A stretch of 64,000 nt of DNA from Actinomycetospora chiangmaiensis DSM 45062. GTDB lineage: Bacteria; Actinomycetota; Actinomycetes; Mycobacteriales; Pseudonocardiaceae. A program made the position numbers and the translations under genes. The notes beneath the pieces were generated by a model. That model did not search any database. It was given only the letters and a program-made list of their open reading frames with translations, and was not told the origin of the DNA. The stretch lies in NCBI RefSeq assembly GCF_000379625.1, contig NZ_KB903217.1, forward strand, positions 699,816-763,815. Direction: 5' to 3'. Shown here piece by piece: positions 8,476 through 60,485 of this stretch; position 1 is the stretch's first letter; each line of letters begins with the position of its first letter.

Positions 8476-9894
8476 ATGTCGGAGGACCTGGCCGAGCGGG
8501 CCCCCGCCCGCACCACCGTCGGGGACGCGGTCCGCAGTGCCCGGGCGGCGTACGACTCGGGACGCACCCGCCCGTTGCGCTGGCGCCGGACGCAGCTCGC
8601 CGCCCTCGAACGCCTGCTCGCCGAGGCCGAGGAGGAGCTCGTCGCCGCGCTCGCGGCCGACCTCGGGCGCCCGGCGGTCGACGCGTGGCTGGCGGACCTG
8701 TCGTCGACCGCGGCCGAGTCGCGCCACGCCCGCCGCCACCTCGGGTGGTGGGCCCGCACGCGGGTGACCGGCGTGCCGGTGGGCGTGGTACCCGCCGTCG
8801 GGACCTGGCGCCCGGAGCCGCTGGGCGTCGTGGCGATCATCGGGCCCTGGAACTACCCGGTGTACCTGACGCTCGCCCCGCTGGTCGCGGCCCTCGCCGC
8901 GGGGAACACCGCGGTGCTCAAGCCGAGCGAGTACGCCCCCGCGACGGCCGCCGCGCTGGAGCGGCTGGTGCCCCGGTACCTCGACCCGCAGGCCGTGACG
9001 GTGGTGCAGGGCGGCCCGGCCGAGACCCAGGAGCTGATCGGCGCCGGGGTGGACCACGTCTTCTTCACCGGGAGCCCCGAGGTGGGGGCGGAGGTCATGG
9101 CGACCGCCGCCCGCACACTGACCCCGGTCACGTTGGAGCTCGGGGGCAAGAGCCCGACGATCGTCGACGCGAGCGCCGACGTCGCGGTCGCCGCCCGCCG
9201 CGTGGCCTGGACGAAGCTCATGAACTCCGGGCAGACCTGCGTCGCGCCCGACTACGTCCTCGTGCACCGCGACGTCGTCGACGCCTTCCTCGCCGGGTTC
9301 ACCGCGGCAGCCCGGGAGATGCGGGAGGGCGACCTCGCGATGCGGGTGGTCGACGACCGTCACGGCGCCCGCGTCCGCGGCCTGCTCGCCGGCCACGGGG
9401 GCCGCGTGGTCCTGGGCGGCGACACCGGGGTCACGACGGCAGGCGCGGGCGACCTGGCGGGCCCCGGCGTGGACCTCACCGTCGTCCTCGACCCGGACCC
9501 CGACTCGGCCCTCATGCGCGAGGAGATCTTCGGCCCGGTCCTGCCGGTGCTCACCGTCGACTCGATGGACGAGGCGATCGCGTTCCTCGCGGCCCGGCCC
9601 CGACCGCTCGCGACCTACGTCTTCTCCCGGACCCGCGCGACGGTCGAGGCCGTCCGGGACCGGATCGCGACCGGCGGGATCGTCACCAACCACACGATGT
9701 TCCACGTGCTCGTCCCGCAGCTGCCCTTCGGCGGCATCGGGCGCAGCGGCATGGGCGCCTACCACGGCAAGTGGGGCTTCGAGGCCCTCAGCCACCGGCG
9801 CCCCACGCTCGTCAAGCCGACCTGGCCCGACCCGTCCCTGGTCTACCCGCCGTACGCGGAGTCGACGAGGAAGCTGCTCCGGAAGATCTTCTAG
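8476..9894 (+). CDS. Aldehyde dehydrogenase, class 3-like (fatty aldehyde type)
   Basis: 472 aa from ATG 8476. It oxidises an aldehyde to a carboxylic acid with NAD(P)+. The Rossmann region has IIGPWNYPVYLTL and AAGNTAVLKPSE (about 121-152), then FFTGSPEVG. The general base is Glu221 in ELGGKSP and the nucleophile is Cys255 in SGQTCVAPDY. EEIFGPVLPV and PFGGIGRSGMGAYHGKWGFE follow. The SGQTCVAPDY form and short length point to the ALDH3/fatty-aldehyde subgroup. It is first in a four-gene operon with fadD, an alpha/beta hydrolase and a WS/DGAT, and divergent from tetR. The product acid could be passed to the next gene, an acyl-CoA ligase 10 nt downstream. Confidence 0.93.
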   Translation: MSEDLAERAPARTTVGDAVRSARAAYDSGRTRPLRWRRTQLAALERLLAEAEEELVAALAADLGRPAVDAWLADLSSTAAESRHARRHLGWWARTRVTGVPVGVVPAVGTWRPEPLGVVAIIGPWNYPVYLTLAPLVAALAAGNTAVLKPSEYAPATAAALERLVPRYLDPQAVTVVQGGPAETQELIGAGVDHVFFTGSPEVGAEVMATAARTLTPVTLELGGKSPTIVDASADVAVAARRVAWTKLMNSGQTCVAPDYVLVHRDVVDAFLAGFTAAAREMREGDLAMRVVDDRHGARVRGLLAGHGGRVVLGGDTGVTTAGAGDLAGPGVDLTVVLDPDPDSALMREEIFGPVLPVLTVDSMDEAIAFLAARPRPLATYVFSRTRATVEAVRDRIATGGIVTNHTMFHVLVPQLPFGGIGRSGMGAYHGKWGFEALSHRRPTLVKPTWPDPSLVYPPYAESTRKLLRKIF

Positions 9895-59656: not shown

Positions 59657-59842
59657 ATGGCGAAGAAGGCACTGGTCAACAAGGCCGCCGCGACCCCGAA
59701 GTTCAAGGTCCGCGGTTACACCCGCTGCAACCGCTGCGGGCGCGCGCGTGCGGTGCTCCGCAAGTTCGGGCTCTGCCGCGTCTGCCTGCGCGAGATGGCG
59801 CACCGGGGCGAGCTCCCGGGCGTCAGCAAGTCCTCGTGGTGA
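59657..59842 (+). CDS. rpsN: 30S ribosomal protein S14, zinc-binding (type Z)
   Basis: 61 aa: [20 protein letters not shown], then a zinc site of Cys24-Cys27 and Cys40-Cys43 (CNRC, CRVC) and the end [11 protein letters not shown]. The short zinc form, usual in the spc operon of actinobacteria. Its TGA overlaps by 4 nt with a GTG opening an unexpected ORF. Confidence 0.98.
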
Positions 59843-60090
59843 GCGGCGTGCACGACGACACGACCGTCGTCCCCGTCGAGGAGGAGGAGCTGCCGGGTCG
59901 TCCGATCGACCCGCAGCTGCTCGAGCTCATCCAGCGCGTCGCCCACCGCGAGCACCTGCTCGGCCAGGGCGACGAGCACCCCCGTACGAACAACTTGACC
60001 CGCCCCGGACGCCGCAGGCCCGCCACGAGGTCGTCCGCCCGCCGGACGACCCGGGGTACCACGGCGAGGAAGGTGACCTGGTCGCGATGA
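59839..60090 (+). CDS. Unrecognised 83-codon ORF wedged between rpsN and rpsH
   Basis: From GTG 59839 (GTGA overlap with rpsN) to TGA 60088-60090, which overlaps the ATG of rpsH (ATGA). Residues 1-47 look coding and read acidic then helical ([20 protein letters not shown], then [14 protein letters not shown]). Second-position GC there is about one third, third-position GC almost complete. Residues 48-83 do not look coding in this frame: mostly Arg, Thr and Ser, with about 86% GC at codon position 2. At the CCCCC run 59979-59983 the coding signal moves to the -1 frame ([37 protein letters not shown]). That frame runs without a stop into rpsH. So this is a real small gene, a frameshifted gene, or an N-terminal S8 extension split by a missing C. 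I recognise no homologue. Confidence 0.5.
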
Positions 60091-60485
60091 CGATGACCGA
60101 CCCCATCGCGGACATGCTCACGCGCATCCGCAACGCCAACTCGGCGTTCCACGAGAGCGTGACCATGCCGCACAGCAAGCTGAAGGCCCACGTGGCCCAG
60201 GTCCTGCTCGAGCAGGGCTACATCGCGGGATACCGCGACGAGCCGGCGACCGTCGGCAAGTCCCTGGTCATCGACCTGAAGTACGGGCCGAACCGCGAGC
60301 GCAGCATCGCCGGCCTCAAGCGGGTCTCGAAGCCGGGCCTGCGGATCTACGCGAAGTCGACCGAGCTGCCGCGCGTGCTCGGCGGCCTCGGCGTCGCGAT
60401 CATCTCGACGTCGTCGGGTCTGCTGACCGACCGTCAGGCCCACCAGCGACGGATGGGCGGGGAAGTCCTCGCCTTCGTCTGGTAG
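60087..60485 (+). CDS. rpsH: 30S ribosomal protein S8
   Basis: 132 aa from ATG 60087: [40 protein letters not shown], and the C-terminal [20 protein letters not shown]. It binds the central domain of 16S rRNA and in E. coli regulates the spc operon. The frame stays open upstream through the C-terminal half of the preceding ORF, so a longer form cannot be excluded; the conserved S8 start is [11 protein letters not shown]. Confidence 0.98.

Follow-up and report, generated by a model that had tools for sequence, protein, structure and literature searches.

The spc operon of Actinomycetospora chiangmaiensis DSM 45062 raises the question of what an additional open reading frame (ORF) between the ribosomal protein genes rpsN and rpsH is for, and why its codon profile seems to change frame halfway along. 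The locus lies in a stretch of DNA of 64,000 nucleotides, which is referred to as the window; all positions are those of the window. The genes concerned are the following:

59657 to 59842, + strand: rpsN, encoding uS14 (Pfam Ribosomal_S14, E 7.1e-24); its last codons, TGG TGA, give a GTGA overlap
59839 to 60090, + strand: GTG-started ORF of 83 codons that stays open between the stop of rpsN and the start of rpsH and is found only in Actinomycetospora
60087 to 60485, + strand: rpsH, encoding uS8 (Pfam Ribosomal_S8, E 8.5e-48); its start, ATGACG, gives an ATGA overlap

The GTG start of the ORF overlaps the rpsN stop, and its TGA stop overlaps the rpsH start. These coordinates, both overlaps, and a run of C at 59979-59983 agree with what a sequence-only reading of the locus had reported, which took the overlaps as the signature of translational coupling at both ends. 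Coupling is indeed probable, but the overlaps themselves are less telling than they seem. They are nearly automatic, because ATGA follows from the ATGAC that is found at the rpsH start in all 27 aligned loci, 10 of them devoid of the ORF, and GTGA follows from any rpsN that ends in a TGG codon and TGA, as is the case in 17/17 Actinomycetospora loci and in 4 of the 10 loci from other genera. In four of the 10 loci outside the genus (L022, L023, L025, and L030), a GTG or GTA frame of 27-43 codons is open from the rpsN stop to rpsH; these frames are due to chance or represent an early stage of the Actinomycetospora arrangement.

The ORF protein is encoded in 17 of 18 Actinomycetospora genomes. 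The remaining genome is 59% complete, and its best DNA match to a query covering rpsN to rpsH has an E value of 5.8e-5. A profile built from the 17 proteins matched 16 of 249 genomes of the family, all of them Actinomycetospora and thus one of 46 genera, with the other 233 genomes being without a match; a scan of contigs with two exact peptide patterns yielded 15 confirmed loci, all 15 from Actinomycetospora. A second weak match within the genus (G001, E 3.6e-5, containing two stops) was treated as chance, since it was absent at E values up to 1 when the G001 locus was searched by tblastn with the window protein. In all 17 genus loci the ORF is open from end to end, which is far beyond chance, and the claim of an extra translated ORF at this place is therefore borne out. 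The gap between rpsN and rpsH measures 235-286 nt in these loci versus 76-124 nt in the 10 loci from other genera (30 loci were taken, of which L026-L028 were unparsed and stand outside the counts). A short gap, which the sequence-only reading had named as an argument against a gene at this site, is hence found in relatives of other genera, but not within Actinomycetospora.

For the 5′ half of the ORF and the region that follows it, two further features need to be distinguished:

59896 to 59961, + strand: residues 20-41, the conserved core of the small protein; pN/pS is 0.28 in the ORF frame and exceeds 1 in each of the other two
59962 to 60009, + strand: variable linker including the C-run, open in the ORF frame, with a pN/pS of about 1 in both the ORF frame and the -1 frame

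Over residues 20-41, the pN/pS in the ORF frame is 0.28 overall, 0.17 in clade A, and 0.21 in clade B, while values in the other two frames range from 1.5 to 11.5. Purifying selection on amino acids is seen for these residues only; judged by pN/pS, constraint at the protein level is absent from the first ~20 residues, from the linker, and from the C-terminal half, and for codons 1-46 taken together the value is 0.89 over all pairs and 0.57 and 1.01 within the clades. AlphaFold predicts one helix at residues 25-43 and little else, with a mean pLDDT of 63 overall, of 84 for residues 21-30, and of 76 for residues 31-40. By comparison of homologous loci, the product of the 5′ half is a small protein that has a single conserved, predicted helix and is selected in the GTG frame only. 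Of the three explanations that had been put forward for this ORF, the new small protein is thereby supported, for its 5′ half. In Pfam the protein is without a match, as is the window copy in NCBIfam, where one of 17 relatives gave a weak match (E 0.083); a profile search of the PDB returned nothing better than an E value of 1.5.

The apparent frame switch concerns the part past the C-run. A recount reproduced the hand-counted figures on which it had been based: GC at codon positions 1, 2, and 3 amounts to 0.89/0.32/0.96 for codons 1-47, to 0.47/0.86/0.89 past the C-run in the ORF frame, and to 0.91/0.46/0.86 in the -1 frame. The composition that had been called textbook-coding in the -1 frame is thus real, but it does not reflect coding. 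A similar -1-frame profile is present in 17/17 genus loci (GC2 0.46-0.51, GC3 0.80-0.86), including the five in which the -1 frame has a stop past the C-run, and for this reason it is no sign of coding. For linker and leader part, taking all pairs and both clades, pN/pS spans 0.68-1.77 when read in the ORF frame and 0.75-1.27 when read in the -1 frame; the comparison of both frames that had been suggested thus gives values of about 1 in either for the 3′ half.

These data bear on the view that a long form of S8 is made, be it by programmed -1 frameshifting at the C-run or through an unannotated N-terminal extension. Its appeal lies in the coding-like composition and in the fact that in 12/17 genus loci no stop interrupts the -1 frame from the C-run position into rpsH; in the window, the frame even extends back into rpsN, and counted from a GTG at 59748 it comprises 245 codons including S8. 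Yet in 5/17 loci the -1 frame meets a stop past the C-run position, no more than 35 codons short of rpsH, and in 8/17 loci it meets one at some point in the spacer; because of these eight, the 245-codon frame was not taken as a gene. The C-run is not conserved among the aligned loci, so that a conserved slippery site followed by an open downstream frame is lacking, and when the -1 frame is followed back from rpsH as far as the first stop or the rpsN end, no ATG, GTG, or TTG is encountered in any of the 17 loci, which leaves the spacer without a conserved upstream start for an extended S8. Together with the pN/pS of about 1 and with the NCBIfam S8 model, which starts only at 60087, this makes a long S8 very improbable.

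Hardly worth considering is an assembly error, in which a base missing from the C-run would break one long frame and S8 would in truth carry an 84-residue extension at its N-terminus. A homopolymer does lie at the site of the apparent switch, but 17 separate assemblies, including that of a 98%-identical relative, agree in length modulo 3. A recent frameshift of the 3′ half is likewise at odds with the same frame being open end to end in 17/17 genus loci. There is no true frame switch; the ORF consists of two halves that differ in kind. An alignment with other genera reveals that the 3′ part of the ORF continues an element that is common to the order. Its difference from the 5′ half lies in its being an RNA element, one that relatives devoid of the ORF possess as well, and it is the composition of this RNA leader that gives the -1 frame its coding look. 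The parts of the leader are as follows:

60010 to 60073, + strand: conserved RNA leader, proposed S8-binding site, as judged from the match of model R2, covariation, and position in the class
60010 to 60014, + strand: 5′ arm of helix P1, CGCCG, pairing with 60062-60066
60016 to 60019, + strand: 5′ strand of the S8-like core, A60016 (595), G60017 (596), G60018 (597), and C60019 (598), with E. coli 16S numbers in brackets
60029 to 60051, + strand: apical hairpin, which varies between species and in Actinomycetospora shifts in length only by multiples of three
60056 to 60060, + strand: 3′ strand of the S8-like core, G60056 (640), U60057 (641), A60058 (642), C60059 (643), and C60060 (644)
60062 to 60066, + strand: 3′ arm of P1, CGGCG, pairing with 60010-60014
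60068 to 60073, + strand: Shine-Dalgarno-like GGAAGG at the end of the leader

The element was traced with two models of the RNA, R1 and R2. The first was built on a seed of 18 relatives of the order, chosen for short loops from 49 extracted leaders (L004-L007 were not used from the extraction and L032 is absent from it); the seed alignment of 18 leaders contains no change on both sides of a pair. This model gave one match each in 39 of 197 genomes of the class, a lower bound on account of strict filters that missed even the window's own genome, and all 30 of the matches that were fetched sit before the rpsH start, as located by motif. The second model, R2, was applied to 30 loci of the class selected by S8 protein score, of which 29 were matched in the right place with E values ≤0.013; the thirtieth (L136) has its match in the right place as well, but with an E value of 0.51, and was counted as a miss. 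Among the 22 of these 30 genomes that were not used in the model, 21 were matched. On 29 loci from other classes, R2 found nothing before rpsH, and two matches elsewhere had E values of 0.40 and 0.55. Two weak R1 matches (L099 2083 and L116 2705) were dropped prior to alignment A5, and two weak R2 matches elsewhere in L137 and L141 prior to the core counts given below.

In the window, R2 matches 60007-60076 with an E value of 7e-11. Four weaker matches (E 0.044-2.6) are found in the window, none of them at rplE; the sole strong match lies before rpsH and not at the rplE start, which would be the location of the E. coli type. The best of the weaker ones, at 9281-9334 on the - strand (E 0.044), is antisense to a long + strand ORF, which resembles an aldehyde dehydrogenase gene, and is probably due to chance.

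Support for the structure comes from an alignment of 80 leader rows (76 distinct), which was itself fitted to the model. It holds 42 cells with changes on both sides of a pair versus 16.8 ± 3.0 after shuffling, a number reached by none of 500 shuffles, and its covariation score is 0.189 versus 0.108 for shuffled and ≤0.065 for slid versions. Three of five covariation measures exceed all 500 shuffles and two do not: the number of pairs with both-side change is 5, versus 4.6 when shuffled and 5 in one slid version, and is reached by 273/500 shuffles; the number of further pair types is reached by 29/500. The folding energy of the window leader is no better than that of its shuffles (z -0.07) and is uninformative. 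Searched against Rfam with lax thresholds, the leader was without a match in the spc stretch of the window and in 12 other loci. A conserved, covarying structure that holds a steady position upstream of a ribosomal protein gene is what characterizes a ribosomal leader, and the element shows both features. A short ATG frame of 9 codons lies between leader and rpsH in L076 and L082, which represent two genera of another family (f3), and its end, TAATG, falls on the start of rpsH; read by eye, the two frames have the pattern M-x-N-x-K-x-R-D-L, and this lineage may have a tiny coupled ORF of its own.

The proposed ligand is S8 itself. According to PMC4176348, the S8 core contains the triples G597-C643-U641 and A595-(A596-U644) together with an invariant A642, and position 641 of natural S8 sites is written N641. 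The leader core has the geometry of 16S helix 21, that is, an unpaired A, two pairs, a two-nucleotide bulge in the 3′ strand ending in A, and then a further pair. E. coli numbers were placed on the other sequences by eye, and the rows counted are those of alignment A5 plus the 30 class loci, 110 in all, with nine genomes counted twice. The equivalents of A595, G597, A642, and C643 are present in 110/110 rows, so that the core geometry with the G597-C643 pair and A642 is found in every one. The pair 598-640 is C-G in 75 rows and U-A in 34, never mixed, with one row gapped; 596-644 is G-C in 108 and A-U in 2. The latter two are class relatives of one genus (g53; L139:1905-1946 and L150:1905-1946, both on the - strand), which read AAGU/AUACU, the exact E. 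coli helix 21 core, and which were found with a model holding no A-U at that pair. At position 641, where the core triple of E. coli has U, the leaders have A in 97 rows, U in 12, including the window, and G in 1. The 16S rRNA was compared in relatives, as none was found in the assembly of the window; that of four relatives carries a GAUAC strand. Since R2 matches neither the E. coli spc region nor the 16S rRNA of these four relatives at E values up to 10, the claim of mimicry rests on the short core.

That the leader is a true cis-regulatory RNA with a ligand other than S8, for instance S14, or is a ribosome-gated stem, would be in line with the prevalence of A at position 641 and with the failure of R2 to recognize either helix 21 or the operator region of E. 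coli. The S8-core geometry, the invariant A642 and G597-C643 equivalents, the two loci whose core letters are exactly those of E. coli, and the immediate vicinity of rpsH all speak against it, and we consider it unlikely. An S8 leader is the preferred interpretation of the RNA.

In Actinomycetospora, the leader is at the same time part of a reading frame, and its length is kept accordingly. Across the 17 genus loci, the distance from the start to the Ile-23 codon is 54-72 nt, the stretch between the Ile-23 codon and the leader 105-123 nt, the leader hairpin 48, 57, or 69 nt, and the remainder 26 or 29 nt. All four segment lengths are constant modulo 3 in 17/17 loci, the distance from Ile-23 to the leader being always 0 modulo 3. 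On a tree of the flanking genes, parsimony yields 20 length changes, all of them multiples of three (p ~3e-10, given a chance of 1/3 for each and assuming independence); irrespective of the tree, no fewer than 14 changes are needed to account for the distinct lengths. As controls, the same hairpin in 63 leaders from outside the genus is distributed 29/20/14 over the classes modulo 3, and the outgroup rpsN-rpsH gaps are distributed 5/4/1. In a frame-blind alignment, 497 of 583 pairwise gap runs are multiples of three; the others are taken as alignment slips, since all total lengths agree. As the GTG frame is open through the leader and changes only in threes, the S8 site is probably traversed by translating ribosomes, which would couple rpsH to rpsN. 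The arms of the leader are nearly frozen over the same loci, the 5′ arm being identical in 17/17 and the 3′ arm differing at two positions, and the RNA function therefore seems to be kept even though ribosomes can cross it.

An open frame with no amino acid constraint in the linker and in the leader part would also be expected if the ORF served merely to keep ribosomes on the enlarged spacer (235-286 versus 76-124 nt), preventing Rho-dependent termination inside the spc operon, with the leader being a relic or independent of the ORF. This explanation leaves both the protein-level selection on residues 20-41 and the almost frozen leader arms unaccounted for and appears improbable. The best-supported reading, to which a probability of roughly two in three is assigned, is an S8 autoregulatory leader combined with a coupled small gene.

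According to this reading, two layers of different age are superimposed. The older one, spread over the class, is an RNA stem that immediately precedes rpsH and has the S8-core geometry of helix 21. Surplus S8 would bind the stem and cover the adjoining Shine-Dalgarno sequence, thereby repressing rpsH and probably the genes downstream; that bound S8 would cover the rpsH start site is suggested by the position of GGAAGG just after the 3′ arm of P1. The younger layer is confined to Actinomycetospora, where the spacer was enlarged by ~150 nt and gained the small ORF, which starts on the rpsN stop, reads the linker and the leader, and ends on the rpsH start. A ribosome terminating at rpsN would start on the small ORF, unfold the S8 site in passing, and restart at rpsH, so that S8 could bind the leader only when ribosomes arriving from rpsN are rare. 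It is a tentative proposal, and one that may well prove wrong, that S8 autoregulation is translation-gated by the Actinomycetospora ORF in this way, with rpsH being repressed only if translation of rpsN is already low.

Translationally coupled small or upstream ORFs form a general class. The Actinomycetospora ORF resembles its members in the stop/start overlaps at both ends and in a frame that is kept open, in part with no amino acid constraint, but it differs from them in crossing a probable protein-binding RNA and in having a 5′ helix selected as protein.

The E. coli spc operator, a mimic of helix 21, has the same core, with unpaired 595, pairs 596-644 and 597-643, bulged 641-642, and invariant A642, by comparison with the description in PMC4176348. 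It is located at rplE, whereas the Actinomycetospora leader precedes rpsH; moreover, 641 is mostly A in the leaders, and the E. coli region is without an R2 match. Eckert and Weinberg (2020; PMC7247131) present 20 predicted ribosomal leaders (r-leaders), each a conserved, covarying RNA beside one ribosomal protein gene in one lineage, and in this respect similar to the leader described here, which differs by its location within an operon and, in Actinomycetospora, within an ORF; an S8 leader was not found in the part of their Table 1 that was compared. Regulation of spc operons outside the E. coli type is stated to be unknown in PMC10931766. Searches of the open-licence literature of PubMed Central listed no paper on an rpsH or S8 leader in Actinobacteria.

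For the interpretation of codon profiles, the locus is a reminder that the composition of an RNA can mimic a frame switch. For the class, the leader offers a concrete and testable candidate S8 site, one for which Rfam holds no counterpart in the spc stretch of the window and the 12 loci searched. The Actinomycetospora ORF, in turn, constitutes a natural experiment, in which ribosomes are driven through the same operator. If the gating were true, a class-wide S8 operator at rpsH would have gained a second input, by way of a small gene whose 3′ half doubles as that operator.
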